This document shows, one piece after another, positions 31,776-40,918 of a stretch of 50,384 nucleotides of DNA (position 1 is the stretch's first letter; each line of letters begins with the position of its first letter). Source of the stretch: a bacterium 1XD21-70 (lineage in GTDB: Bacteria; Bacillota; Clostridia; Lachnospirales; Lachnospiraceae); assembly GCA_003669055.1 (NCBI GenBank), contig RAYB01000039.1:1-50384 (forward strand), given 5' to 3'. Below the pieces are notes generated by a model. It was not told the origin of the DNA. It made no database searches and saw only the letters and a program-made list of their open reading frames with translations. The translations under genes and the position numbers were made by a program.

Positions 31776-32396
31776 ATGGAGGAGTACAGTAAGCAGCTGT
31801 CAGAACTGAAAAAAGAGGTGCTGGGCGCGGCCAAGAAGGCATACCGGGAGAAGCTGATGGCAGGGACCAGCGGGAATATGAGCGTATTCTGGCCGGAGCG
31901 GGGGTGGATGGTGATCACTCCGGGATCGTATGACTATGAGATGATGGAAGAAAAGGACATCGTGGTCACGGATCTGGACGGGCAGGTGGTGGAGGGATGC
32001 CATAATCCGTCTTCCGAGTGGAGGATGCATGCGGAGATCTATAAGCACCTGCCCCATGTCAGGGCAGTGGTGCACACCCATTCCCCCTATGCCACCAGCT
32101 TTGCCGTGAACCACCAGGAGATCCCGGTGGTATTGATAGAGATGATCCCTTTTCTGAAGGGGAAGCTGGAGGTGAGCGCCTATGCCGAGCAGGGGAGTGC
32201 CCAGGTAGGGCTCAATGCCGTGCCGGTGCTAGCGCGCAAGAATGCCTGCCTGATGGCGAACCACGGGGTGGTGGCAGTAGGGGAGAGCATGGCATCGGCT
32301 TACACCAACAGCGTGTATGTGGAGGACACGGCCAGGATTTACCATATGGCGCTGCAGAGCGGGAAGCCGGCAGTGATTCCCGGATATGAGGAATAA
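31776..32396 (+). CDS. Class II aldolase (fuculose-phosphate/5-deoxyribulose-phosphate aldolase type)
   Basis: 206 residues of the zinc class II aldolase/adducin family. Catalytic E81 lies in PSSEWRMHAEIY, and zinc ligands are H100 and H102 (VVHTHSPYA) and H163 (MANHGVVAVG). The N-terminal GTSGNMS motif binds phosphate. Relatives cleave L-fuculose-1-P, L-rhamnulose-1-P, methylthioribulose-1-P or 5-deoxyribulose-1-P to DHAP plus an aldehyde. Its neighbours (MtnA-type isomerase, alcohol dehydrogenase, nucleoside importer, deaminase) favour the last two, the aldolase step of the DHAP shunt; this is inference. ATG 31776 has GGAGGGGAG upstream. No convincing promoter was found in 31705-31775. Confidence 0.82.
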   Translation: MEEYSKQLSELKKEVLGAAKKAYREKLMAGTSGNMSVFWPERGWMVITPGSYDYEMMEEKDIVVTDLDGQVVEGCHNPSSEWRMHAEIYKHLPHVRAVVHTHSPYATSFAVNHQEIPVVLIEMIPFLKGKLEVSAYAEQGSAQVGLNAVPVLARKNACLMANHGVVAVGESMASAYTNSVYVEDTARIYHMALQSGKPAVIPGYEE

Positions 32397-32423
32397 GGGG
32401 CAAAGAAAGAGAAAGGAAAAAGG

Positions 32424-33401
32424 ATGAAAGGGATTTATTTTGACGGGAGAACGGCGGCGTACCGTGAGGATTTGCCCATGCCGGTGCCCGGGGAGGGGGA
32501 GAGCCTGATCCGGATTCTCTATGCAGGGGTCTGCAATACGGACAGGGAAGTGCTCCGGGGGTACCGCCCTAACTTCCAGGGGGTCATGGGTCATGAGTTT
32601 GTGGGGCTCGTAGAAGCATCCTCGGATCCTTCCTGGGTGGGGCGCCGGGTGGTCGGGGAACTGAATGCCGGCTGCGGGCACTGCATCTACTGCCGCACCG
32701 GCAGGGAAAAACACTGCCCGGAACGGAAAGTCATCGGCATGGACGGGAAGGACGGCTGTTTTGCGGAGTATATGGCGCTGGCGACCCATCTGCTCCATGA
32801 GGTACCGCCGGGTCTGCCCTTGAAGGAGGCGCTGCTGGCAGAGCCGCTGGCGGCAGCCCTGGAGATCCCCAAGCAGCTGCATATGGATCCCGATACGAGG
32901 GTTGCCGTCATTGGAGACGGGCGGCTGGCATACCTGGCCGCATCGGTGCTGGGGCTTTACGGCATGGACCTGACTGTTGTCGGGAAGCATCCCGAGAAAC
33001 TCGCACAGTTTGCAGGGATGGGGAAAACATGGGATTTGGCACAGGCAAGGCAGGCGTTTGCCAGCCCGGATGATACATTTGAGGTCGTGGTGGAGGCTTC
33101 CGGCTCCCCGTCGGGCCTGGAACTGGCTTCCGGGCTGGTGCGCAGGCAGGGGACAATCGTACTCAAGAGCACGTACGCAGGAAGCGTGGATGTGGACATG
33201 AGCCGGTTTGTGGTCAATGAAATCACAATCAAGGGCAGCCGCTGCGGCCCGTTCGGCCCGGCTCTGCGCTTATTGGGCAGGGGGCTGGTGAAACTGCCGC
33301 CGGTGGAATTCTTTGGGCTTAAGGACTGGGAAGGGGCGTTTTGTTCAGGGGCATTCAAGGCAGGCTTTTTGGTACAGGAAAGAGAGGGGCAATATGGATG
33401 A
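32424..33401 (+). CDS. Zinc-dependent medium-chain alcohol dehydrogenase
   Basis: 325 residues. Catalytic zinc ligands C37 (AGVCNTD) and H57/E58 (GHEF). Structural zinc is bound by C84, C87, C90 and C98 ([15 protein letters not shown]). The Rossmann domain starts near residue 150 ([19 protein letters not shown]), slightly altered from GxGxxG. In this context it would reduce the acetaldehyde or methylthio-acetaldehyde released by the aldolase to an alcohol, regenerating NAD; a sugar dehydrogenase role is the alternative. It overlaps the isomerase gene by 8 bases. Confidence 0.85.
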
Positions 33402-38621: not shown

Positions 38622-39580
38622 TGGAACGGATTATCATTGATGGGCTGTCGTTTTCCCTGCCATTGTTTATCATGGCCATCGGGGGGATCTACAGTGAAAA
38701 AAGCGGGATTACCAACCTGGCTTTGGAAGGCCTGCAGGGGGTCGGCGCATTTACCGGTGCACTGGCGGCGGTGCTGGCGGCGGGGAGTTTTTCGGATCAG
38801 TCCCAGGCACCATTTTATCTGGCTGTGGTATTCGCTGTGGCCGGAGGGGTGGTATATTCCCTGCTGCATGCCCTGCTTTGCATCCGGTTCAAGGCGAACC
38901 AGGTGATCAGCGGCGTGGTGATTAACATCCTTGCCATGGCACTGACGGCATTTCTGACCAAATATTTGAACCGCAGCGTGTTTGGGGCAGCATCGGATAA
39001 GTTTGTGCTGGGGGTGTCGCTGCGGATCACAGTGCCGGCGTTGTCGCAGATCCCGGTTTTGGGGGCTGCGTTCCAGGATCTGTACCCTTTTGAGGTGATC
39101 ATTGTATTGGCGGCATTGGCCGCCTGGTATGTGATGTACAAGACCCGGTACGGCATGAACCTGCGCGCCTGCGGGGACAATCCCCATGCGGTGGATGCGG
39201 CAGGGGTGGATGTGGGGAAGGTACGCCTTGTGGCAGTCATGGTTTCCGGCGGGCTGTCGGGGCTTGCAGGGATCTGTTTTGCCTACTCGATCTCGGCGAA
39301 TTTTTCTTCCAGCATTTATGTGGGGTATGGGTATCTGGCCATTGCGGCACTGATTTTTGGCAACTGGACGATCCTGCCGACATTGGGTTCCTGCCTGCTG
39401 TTCGGGTTTGCGAGGTCAGGCGGGTACTATCTGGTGCAGCGGATGCAGATGCCAAGCAGCTATTCCGATTTGGTGATGACCCTCCCCTATGTGGTAACCT
39501 TGCTTTTGCTGGTATTCTTCTCCCGCTATAACCGTTCGCCGCGGGCGCTGGGGGAGATCTATGATAAGGGGAAACGATAG
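38621..39580 (+). CDS. Nucleoside ABC transporter permease 2
   Basis: 319 residues, about 8 membrane helices. Conserved: GGIYSEKSGITNLALEGLQGVGAF near the N-terminus and the coupling loop RACGDNPHAVDAAGVDVGKVR. It pairs with permease 1 to form the heteromeric channel. Start ATG overlaps the preceding TGA. The amidohydrolase gene follows after 36 bases. Confidence 0.92.
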   Translation: MERIIIDGLSFSLPLFIMAIGGIYSEKSGITNLALEGLQGVGAFTGALAAVLAAGSFSDQSQAPFYLAVVFAVAGGVVYSLLHALLCIRFKANQVISGVVINILAMALTAFLTKYLNRSVFGAASDKFVLGVSLRITVPALSQIPVLGAAFQDLYPFEVIIVLAALAAWYVMYKTRYGMNLRACGDNPHAVDAAGVDVGKVRLVAVMVSGGLSGLAGICFAYSISANFSSSIYVGYGYLAIAALIFGNWTILPTLGSCLLFGFARSGGYYLVQRMQMPSSYSDLVMTLPYVVTLLLLVFFSRYNRSPRALGEIYDKGKR

Positions 39581-39616
39581 CGTGCCCGCAAGTTGCGGGC
39601 AGGAAGGAGCAGGACT

Positions 39617-40918
39617 ATGAATATCCGTTTTTATAATGCGAGGATCCTGGCCATGGACGGGGATACGGAAGTCACAAGGGGTGAGGTCTGGGTTCAGGGG
39701 AATAAGATCACGTATGTGGGAAGCACTGCCCACATAAGGGAAGGGACCATGGGGAGGGAAAACGCCCCCCAGGCCTGGGACCGGGAAATCGACGTGGAAG
39801 AAAACCTGGTGATGCCGGGCTTTGCCAATGCACATACCCATTCGGCAATGACATTCCTGCGCTCTTATGCCGATGACCTGCCTTTGCAGGAGTGGCTAAA
39901 GAAGCAGGTGTTCCCGATGGAGGCAAAGCTGACGGGGGAGGATATTTACGAACTTTCCCGGCTGGCCATCCTGGAATACCTCACCAGCGGGATCACCTGC
40001 AATTTCGACATGTATTTCCACCCGGAAATGATCGCCCGGGCATCCGTAGACTGCGGCTTCCGTACCGTGATGGTCAGCAGCCTGAACAATTTCACCTCCT
40101 CTTTGGGTGAGATGGAACAGGAATACTTAAAATATAACCATTACCACGAACTGATCCGCTACCATCTCGGGTTCCATGCAGAGTATACCACCTCAGAGGA
40201 ATTGCTGAGGGGCGTGGCCGCCCTGGCAGAGAAATACCAGGCTCCGGTATTTACCCACAATTCGGAGACCAGACGGGAGGTGGACGAATGCATTGCACGC
40301 CACAAGATGACCCCCACGGCATACTTGGATTCCCTGGGGCTTTTTCGCTATGGCGGCGGAGGTTACCACTGCGTCCACATGGCAGAGGAGGACATCCGGA
40401 TCTTTAAAGAGCGCGGCCTGGCCGTGGTGACCAACCCAGGCTCCAACACGAAGCTTTCCAGCGGGATTGCCAGGATCTCAGACATGCTAAAGGAAGGCGT
40501 GAAACTTGCCGTCGGCACGGACGGGCCGGCCAGCAACAACTGCCTGGACATGTTCCGTGAGATGTTCTTGGTGACCGGCTTAGCAAAACTCCGGGAGGGG
40601 GATGCATCGGCCGTCCCGGCAGAAGAAGTCCTTAAGATGGCCACCGTGGGAGGCGCCCTCGCCATGGGGCTTTCAGACTGCGGGTGCCTGGCGCCCGGGA
40701 AGCTGGCTGATTTGATTGTCATTGACCTAAAGCAGCCCAATATGCAGCCTCTCAACCATATCGCAAAAAACCTGGTGTACAGCGGCAGCAAACAGAACGT
40801 GAAACTAACCATGGTGAACGGAAAAATCCTCTACGAGGACGGGGAGTTCTTTGTAGGGGCAAAACCAGAAGAGATCTACGAGAAAGCCAACCGGATTATC
40901 AAACGGATGGCAGGATAG
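39617..40918 (+). CDS. Amidohydrolase, MTA/SAH/5'-deoxyadenosine deaminase type
   Basis: 433 residues of the ATZ/TRZ amidohydrolase group. Metal ligands in order: H73 and H75 (FANAHTHSAMTFLRSYADDL), H214 with E217 (THNSET), H251 (GYHCVHM) and D302 (VGTDGPASNN). The DLPLQEWL motif after the HxH is typical of methylthioadenosine/S-adenosylhomocysteine deaminases and of DadD-like 5'-deoxyadenosine deaminases. The reaction is hydrolytic loss of ammonia from the adenine ring, giving the inosine derivative. It ends the operon that begins with the aldolase, isomerase and nucleoside importer, which supports a nucleoside substrate. AAGGAGC precedes ATG 39617. Guanine- or cytosine-deaminase activity is less likely. 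Confidence 0.85.
   Translation: MNIRFYNARILAMDGDTEVTRGEVWVQGNKITYVGSTAHIREGTMGRENAPQAWDREIDVEENLVMPGFANAHTHSAMTFLRSYADDLPLQEWLKKQVFPMEAKLTGEDIYELSRLAILEYLTSGITCNFDMYFHPEMIARASVDCGFRTVMVSSLNNFTSSLGEMEQEYLKYNHYHELIRYHLGFHAEYTTSEELLRGVAALAEKYQAPVFTHNSETRREVDECIARHKMTPTAYLDSLGLFRYGGGGYHCVHMAEEDIRIFKERGLAVVTNPGSNTKLSSGIARISDMLKEGVKLAVGTDGPASNNCLDMFREMFLVTGLAKLREGDASAVPAEEVLKMATVGGALAMGLSDCGCLAPGKLADLIVIDLKQPNMQPLNHIAKNLVYSGSKQNVKLTMVNGKILYEDGEFFVGAKPEEIYEKANRIIKRMAG

Follow-up and report, generated by a model that had tools for sequence, protein, structure and literature searches.

The window analysed here is contig C59 (50384 bases) of genome G000, an assembly of 4.31 Mb in 137 contigs, and at 31776-40918 it carries eight open reading frames (ORFs) in one orientation whose families were called by Pfam and NCBIfam (Table 1). 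Judged from the sequence comparisons described below, this operon probably allows the cell to take up and salvage 5'-deoxynucleosides, above all 5'-deoxyadenosine, which would enter the dihydroxyacetone phosphate (DHAP) shunt through deamination. The BMP-type ATP-binding cassette (ABC) transporter would import the nucleoside, the deaminase would convert 5'-deoxyadenosine to 5'-deoxyinosine, and a purine nucleoside phosphorylase (PNP), encoded elsewhere in G000 and carried in the operon itself by relatives outside the genus, would split 5'-deoxyinosine into hypoxanthine and 5-deoxyribose-1-phosphate without spending kinase ATP. The MtnA-type isomerase would then form 5-deoxyribulose-1-phosphate, the aldolase would cleave it to DHAP and acetaldehyde, and the zinc dehydrogenase would reduce acetaldehyde to ethanol. 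We infer all of the substrates, the order of the reactions and the direction of transport; import is preferred over export because the system includes a binding protein, as is established for the family. An initial annotation of this DNA had read eight consecutive genes of these families in this order, with neither a kinase nor a 5'-methylthioadenosine (MTA) phosphorylase in the unit, and both statements were confirmed. Our comparisons also support its deaminase-first interpretation.

We are highly confident that the eight genes work together. From the aldolase to the deaminase the intergenic spacings are 27, -8, 88, 108, -14, -1 and 36 nt, so that four of the seven junctions overlap or are shorter than 30 nt (27, -8, -14 and -1) and the others measure 36, 88 and 108 nt, with starts taken at the first ATG (33394 for MtnA and 34574 for the BMP protein; the search queries for both were one codon longer upstream). 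Within a genus sample of 24 genomes, G000 included, an MtnA orthologue with at least 73% identity was present in 12 genomes, and no MtnA match was found in the other 12. A BMP orthologue with at least 77% identity was present in the same 12 genomes, and no BMP match above 37% appeared in the 12 MtnA-less genomes among the candidates scored (at most 30 per genome). The aldolase (at least 78% identity) was found in 11 of the 12 MtnA-bearing genomes and in none of the 12 others; the G016 contig ends just upstream of the dehydrogenase, and the G001 aldolase lies on a separate contig. The deaminase (at least 70%) was likewise found in 11 of the 12, the G008 contig ending inside a permease. The full set of eight genes, with its order unchanged, is carried by 8 genus relatives out of 11 (G005, G010, G012, G014, G017, G019, G022 and G023, with an extra ORF between MtnA and BMP in G022), and the operon is cut by contig ends in the remaining three (G001, G008 and G016). 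Metabolic and transporter genes thus co-occur in relatives, as the initial annotation would require.

An MtnA-alignment scan of named genomes yielded more loci than the best 80 considered here. Among these 80, NP-II phosphorylases accompanied MtnA at 28 loci, BMP proteins at 18, the deaminase (at least 45% identity) at 14, PNP-I in or beside the cluster at 12 and 5-methylthioribose (MTR) kinase at 4. The four MTR kinase loci had no NP-II, BMP, deaminase or PNP-I gene, and 24 loci, some of them on short contigs, lacked all seven partners counted. The gene order at L088, L091 and L096 is DeoR, aldolase, PNP, dehydrogenase, MtnA, BMP, ATPase, permease, permease, deaminase; the PNP that sits between aldolase and dehydrogenase is orthologous to that of G000, and the BMP importer of L096 belongs to another subfamily. 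L111 contains the same kinds of genes with an aldolase that groups, on a long branch, with the kinase-linked clade. A strongly diverged set occurs at L040 (G057:C1:2860000-2879000), in another family of the order, where aldolase, permeases, ATPase, BMP, PNP, two uridine-phosphorylase-like genes, MtnA, DeoR and deaminase are found; DeoR-type genes are also present at L088, L091, L096 and L111. Since the gene order recurs in the genus, and other families have this functional set assembled with non-orthologous parts, the grouping exceeds chance, and the replacement of parts while the set was kept (the L096 importer, the L111 aldolase and the diverged G057 set) supports a shared function.

A search with the deaminase alone over 391 genomes of the class gave 22 matches at E <= 1e-100, its own included, and neighbourhoods were retrieved for 20 of them. 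Of 11 relatives outside the genus (53-64% identity), 9 carry a PNP-I gene no more than ~1.5 kb away from the deaminase, L234 and L238 being the two without. The search of related genomes for a nucleoside phosphorylase that the initial annotation had proposed found PNP in the operon or beside MtnA outside the genus. Nine further deaminase homologues from one genus (L240-L248, 47-51% identity) have ABC ATPase genes instead of PNP, two each and one in L242.

We compared gene content over 34 genomes, namely the 22 with the cluster (12 from the genus, among them G008 with its deaminase end cut off, and 10 named genomes) and the 12 genus genomes without it. Isolates in which we found the cluster include Diplocloster agilis, Extibacter muris, Anaerotruncus massiliensis and Clostridium sp. 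MCC353. No MTR kinase (TIGR01767) match was found in G000, which is 96.7% complete, and over the cut-off this kinase appeared only in G019 and G070, both cluster-bearing, so that 20 of the 22 cluster genomes had no match over the cut-off; fragments of 20-26 bits were seen in G063 and G068. G000 encodes five PF01048 proteins, comprising an MTA/S-adenosylhomocysteine (SAH) nucleosidase, an inosine/guanosine-specific PNP (C43:264518-265258; TIGR01700, 305.2 bits against a cut-off of 293.4), two uridine phosphorylases and one protein that has no NCBIfam match at the E-value applied. The general PNP that had been expected elsewhere in the genome is accordingly present, as a single inosine/guanosine-specific enzyme. 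No MTA phosphorylase was recognised among the five, one of which has no NCBIfam call, and the sole NP-I protein of G000, classed as PNPH, scored 72.5 bits with the MTAP model against a cut-off of 274.9. PNP-I over the TIGR01697 cut-off was present in 31 of the 34 genomes, including all 22 with the cluster, and second PNP-I hits in these 22 were below 25 bits save for a second PNP in G064; this hints that MTAP may be absent outside G000 too, the MTAP model having been applied to individual proteins rather than to whole genomes. With no kinase and no recognised MtnP, deamination followed by PNP is the route to a sugar-1-phosphate still visible in G000. The nucleosidase would yield free 5-deoxyribose, without a known kinase for the next step.

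Catalytic residues are conserved in several of the proteins. MtnA scored above the TIGR00512 and PRK05720 cut-offs, and its Cys167 and Asp247 (in a numbering one residue longer than from the ATG), which we take to be catalytic, were invariant across 12 sequences and aligned with the B. subtilis structure 2yrf. The deaminase keeps ten TM0936 positions (H55, H57, H200, E203, H228, D279, W75, E84, H173 and S283), presumably metal and catalytic residues. Both Arg136 and Arg148 of TM0936, which we assume to bind the SAH carboxylate, are Ser in the window deaminase; 4f0r, a named MTA/SAH deaminase, also lacks them, and their absence is thus a weak test for SAH deaminases. No NCBIfam equivalog cut-off was reached by the deaminase among the 25 matches listed. 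The BMP protein matched PF02608 (E 3.9e-42), its closest solved relative is the purine nucleoside receptor PnrA of T. pallidum (2fqw), and by eye it seems to retain seven of the eight residues that PMC12892991 lists for the pocket, the eighth being changed from F to Y. In the aldolase, Glu81, His100, His102 and His163 (positions hand-counted from the alignment) align with Glu76 of DrdA (PMC6079011) and its histidine motifs. Our tree places the window aldolase in a group of 8 with the kinase-cluster aldolase of G019 (support 96/84) and not with DrdA, and the branch holding DrdA and S. pneumoniae FucA excludes it. That G019 aldolase belongs to a second, kinase-type cluster beside the deaminase operon of this genome (L039, G019:C2:76000-95000), which comprises a sugar-type ABC ATPase, an MTR kinase, an aldolase 54% like the window's, an iron alcohol dehydrogenase, a distant MtnA and an EutH-like permease.

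Sequence context further suggests that the sugar is very likely a 5-deoxy sugar, because the partners of MtnA alternate between kinase, deaminase with PNP, and DeoD-type phosphorylases that lack a histidine. In the MtnA tree the PNP/deaminase, DeoD and MTR kinase contexts interleave, with 17 changes where 5 would do, and the labels are still more clustered than when shuffled (17 versus a mean of 27.8); the starred branches force at least five changes for PNP and at least four for DeoD, and five of the six kinase-linked MtnA rows group together inside a large clade. Kinase-linked and deaminase-linked MtnA proteins differ in 13 columns, including a Pro beside the Cys loop, which is proof for neither sugar. 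Of the 20 phosphorylases near MtnA that were script-classed as DeoD-type, 19 are without the N-terminal histidine, with mostly Cys or Ser in its place (among them those at L094, L095, L106, L121, L124, L130, L157 and L159). When linked and unlinked copies were compared (25 of 30 loci readable), the histidine was missing from 16 of 17 MtnA-linked DeoD proteins and kept in all 8 unlinked paralogues of the same genomes. In B. subtilis PNP, His4 holds a sugar hydroxyl (PMC3434127), and in the Plasmodium enzyme (PfPNP) His7 holds the 5'-OH, the ratio of inosine to 5'-methylthioinosine (MTI) activity falling from 1.6 to 0.1 with His7Ser and to 0.3 with His7Phe (PMC3885546). The MtnA-linked proteins without the histidine are therefore candidates for a new subfamily of 5'-deoxynucleoside phosphorylases.

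Several observations weigh against the proposed route. The genus copies, being related by descent, do not count as independent, the window genus encodes its PNP away from the operon, and a deaminase with at least 70% identity also occurs in 5 of the 12 genus genomes without MtnA. Deaminase and PNP are paired without MtnA alongside in G024 and G026, showing that the deaminase occurs without MtnA, and in G026 a cytidine deaminase gene lies alongside the pair. By score the aldolase is no closer to DrdA than to FucA, and the BMP protein retains, by eye, the pocket residues said to bind ribose. Among the PNP-I proteins, that of G000 retains the histidine that we take to correspond to the 5'-OH contact His257 of human PNP, as do 6 of the 13 cluster copies (L088, L090, L091, L096, L108 and L111); the other 7 have it changed. 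Nine of the 10 genomes with a cluster PNP that were searched show, by coordinates, no further PNP-I above the cut-off. This counts for the route, but a cluster copy that is the sole PNP may also have to serve inosine. For DeoD, the available text reports that His7Ala leaves the PfPNP inosine/MTI ratio at 2.2, and Cys, frequent in the linked proteins, is absent from its tabulated His7 variants (PMC3885546).

The deaminase may, in addition, be the cell's general adenosine deaminase, because no Add-type enzyme was matched in G000 or in any of the 10 named cluster genomes. Strong Add matches in the genus were confined to G003, G004 (split into two pieces), G015, G019 and G020. G010 and G022 gave partial matches (97-99 bits), and those in G012, G017 and G023 (27-30 bits) lie at the cut-off; among the 34 genomes only G019 has a full-length Add together with a window-type deaminase. 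Finally, a true uridine phosphorylase lies directly upstream of MtnA at L145, L149 and L153 (3 of the best 80 loci), which would imply ribose-1-phosphate as the MtnA substrate there; this pair stands twice next to an apparent Liv-type ABC importer.

The main rival is ordinary purine nucleoside catabolism, in which adenosine or inosine would be taken up, deaminated and split by phosphorolysis to ribose-1-phosphate; the MtnA homologue would turn this into ribulose-1-phosphate, which would be cleaved to DHAP and glycolaldehyde for reduction to ethylene glycol, bypassing phosphopentomutase. The kept PNP-I histidine, the near mutual exclusion of Add and the window-type deaminase, the G026 neighbours and the uridine phosphorylase pairs all speak for it, but we consider it unlikely. 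MTR kinase clusters contain MtnA and aldolases of the same clade, and DrdK, a characterised kinase, is inactive on ribose (PMC6079011); the MtnA-linked DeoD copies have lost the 5'-OH histidine; and the active-site Cys loop deviates from the consensus in two of the three uridine phosphorylase-linked MtnA proteins (L145 and L153), while that of L149 and of the window MtnA conforms to it. Another importer of the BMP type is encoded in G000 at L167 (G000:C33:88000-107500), with genes for a uridine phosphorylase and an Amidohydro_2 protein close by. This second importer may serve ordinary nucleosides, which we count in favour of a 5'-deoxynucleoside role for the one in the window.

If the operon takes up 5'-deoxynucleosides as proposed, MTA could be the main substrate, passing through 5'-methylthioinosine to MTR-1-phosphate and from there to DHAP and methylthioacetaldehyde, with methylthioethanol as the end product. 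This variant is in keeping with the family name of MtnA, with the MTA deaminases among the relatives of the window deaminase and with the ability of DHAP shunt enzymes to take both sugars (PMC10986504, PMC6079011). It appears improbable nonetheless, as the G000 PNP is of the trimeric, histidine-keeping type, human PNP does not cleave MTI (PMC3885546) and the eight genes include no additional sulfur-salvage gene. We therefore prefer 5'-deoxyadenosine over MTA with moderate confidence, because of the PNP type.

It is very unlikely that the operon consists of two side-by-side modules that share no flux, a general purine importer with its deaminase and an unrelated set for 5-deoxyribose disposal. 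Deaminase, BMP importer and MtnA do occur apart, for example on three contigs in G026, but they have been joined repeatedly with replaced parts, as at L096, L111 and in G057, and the placement of PNP inside the metabolic half at L088, L091 and L096 runs counter to such a division. Fucose or rhamnose catabolism was rejected, as the eight genes include MtnA and no matching sugar isomerase or kinase.

Parts of the salvage route proposed here have precedents. Two entries into the DHAP shunt have been named, nucleosidase plus kinase and MtnP (PMC10986504). The shunts of E. coli ATCC 25922 (Pfs, MtnK, MtnA and Ald2, with MtnR) and R. rubrum (MtnP, MtnA and Ald2) share with the window MtnA, a class II aldolase, the alcohol dehydrogenase step and the use, proposed for the window, of exogenous 5'-deoxynucleosides; the E. 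coli operon, whose regulator MtnR (YjhU) is described as a member of the deoxyribonucleoside operon repressor family (PMC12632272), also has a transporter gene (PMC10986504, PMC12632272). The window differs in that no kinase and no MtnP were found and deaminase plus PNP is proposed instead, and in that its transporter belongs to the BMP-type nucleoside ABC importers. DrdK-DrdI-DrdA of Bacillus thuringiensis uses the same isomerase and aldolase chemistry, some such clusters carry sugar transporters, and clusters with a phosphorylase (C. phytofermentans) are mentioned (PMC6079011); the window, by comparison, has no kinase, is predicted to take up nucleosides rather than sugars, and has an aldolase outside the DrdA branch.

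Deamination as the first step has been proposed for M. jannaschii, followed by MtiP and, as a suggestion, an aldolase step (PMC6302742). That route resembles the one proposed here in its deaminase, its hypoxanthine-nucleoside phosphorylase and its MtnA-like isomerase; it differs in belonging to an archaeon and in its proposed end product, 6-deoxy-5-ketofructose-1-phosphate, and the available portions mention no importer operon (PMC6302742, PMC6079011). Salvage of MTA by adenosine deaminase and PNP in Plasmodium likewise places deamination before phosphorolysis, but it is a parasite purine salvage route, with no MtnA/aldolase arm mentioned in the portion available (PMC3885546). The BmpA-NupABC and PnrA importers have the substrate-binding protein, double ATPase and two permeases of the window system (PMC12628685, PMC13325309), which unlike them is tied to a catabolic 5-deoxysugar operon. 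In our search of the open-access literature, no paper brought together a deaminase, PNP, MtnA, an aldolase and a BMP importer. The deaminase-first order thus has precedents, in outline, in an archaeon and in Plasmodium, and in that literature we found no description of it as an operon-encoded entry to the bacterial aldolase pathway with an importer of its own.

A deaminase-first entry, if true, would spare kinase ATP and deliver hypoxanthine rather than adenine, suggesting how anaerobes without the kinase dispose of an inhibitory by-product of radical S-adenosylmethionine (SAM) enzymes, and the nucleoside importer would point to a gut niche based on cross-feeding. On balance we lean towards a broader view in which gut clostridia use dedicated importers to feed on the waste nucleosides that radical-SAM enzymes of neighbouring cells leave behind, with at least two extra entries (deaminase plus PNP, and the MtnA-linked DeoD without histidine), the isomerase-aldolase core staying fixed while the enzyme that makes the 1-phosphate was swapped repeatedly. 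Pairs of linked and unlinked DeoD in one genome, such as L182 and L203, offer a natural and clean test of 5'-specificity.

Table 1. Features of the predicted 5'-deoxynucleoside operon and the hairpins at its borders (coordinates in contig C59; MDR, medium-chain dehydrogenase/reductase).
Feature	Coordinates	Strand	Basis
Class II aldolase (Ald2/DrdA/FucA superfamily), PF00596	31776..32396	+	Pfam and alignment
Zinc-dependent MDR alcohol dehydrogenase, PF08240/PF00107; presumed reductase of the aldehyde product	32424..33401	+	Pfam, NCBIfam
MtnA-type 5-deoxy/5-methylthioribose-1-phosphate isomerase	33394..34485	+	TIGR00512, PRK05720
BMP/PnrA-type nucleoside-binding lipoprotein, PF02608; LTGC lipobox by eye	34574..35797	+	Pfam
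Double ABC ATPase of the predicted nucleoside importer	35906..37492	+	Pfam, NCBIfam
Permease 1, BPD_transp_2	37479..38621	+	Pfam, NCBIfam
Permease 2, BPD_transp_2	38621..39580	+	Pfam, NCBIfam
Amidohydrolase-type adenine-nucleoside deaminase, MTA/SAH/5'-deoxyadenosine deaminase group	39617..40918	+	Pfam, NCBIfam, alignment
Terminator-like hairpin, 14 pairs, closing the upstream HPr gene	31672..31702	+	
Terminator-like hairpin, 12 pairs, closing the operon	40931..40962	+	

Terminator-like hairpins flank the operon (Table 1), but the region holds 14 such sites against 8.9 +/- 2.8 in shuffled sequence, so single sites are weak evidence. An Rfam scan of the window gave no family at the gathering score, and thus no evidence of a riboswitch. 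A histidine-phosphatase-type gene lies upstream of the aldolase in 8 of the 11 genus relatives (L025:11277-12047 and L026-L032), identified by a PF00300 match in L025 and by similar sequence in the others; one ORF separates it from the operon in L029 and L031. No match to this gene was found in G000 in a search run without a positive control, and in G013 (L171) a gene of this type adjoins the deaminase. The operon of G000 seems to be set into a housekeeping neighbourhood, in which the upstream genes (27510-31617) resemble by sight HPr kinase, MurB, RapZ, WhiA and HPr, the last confirmed by Pfam, and the downstream neighbour (44131-46134) is by sight HtpG-like.

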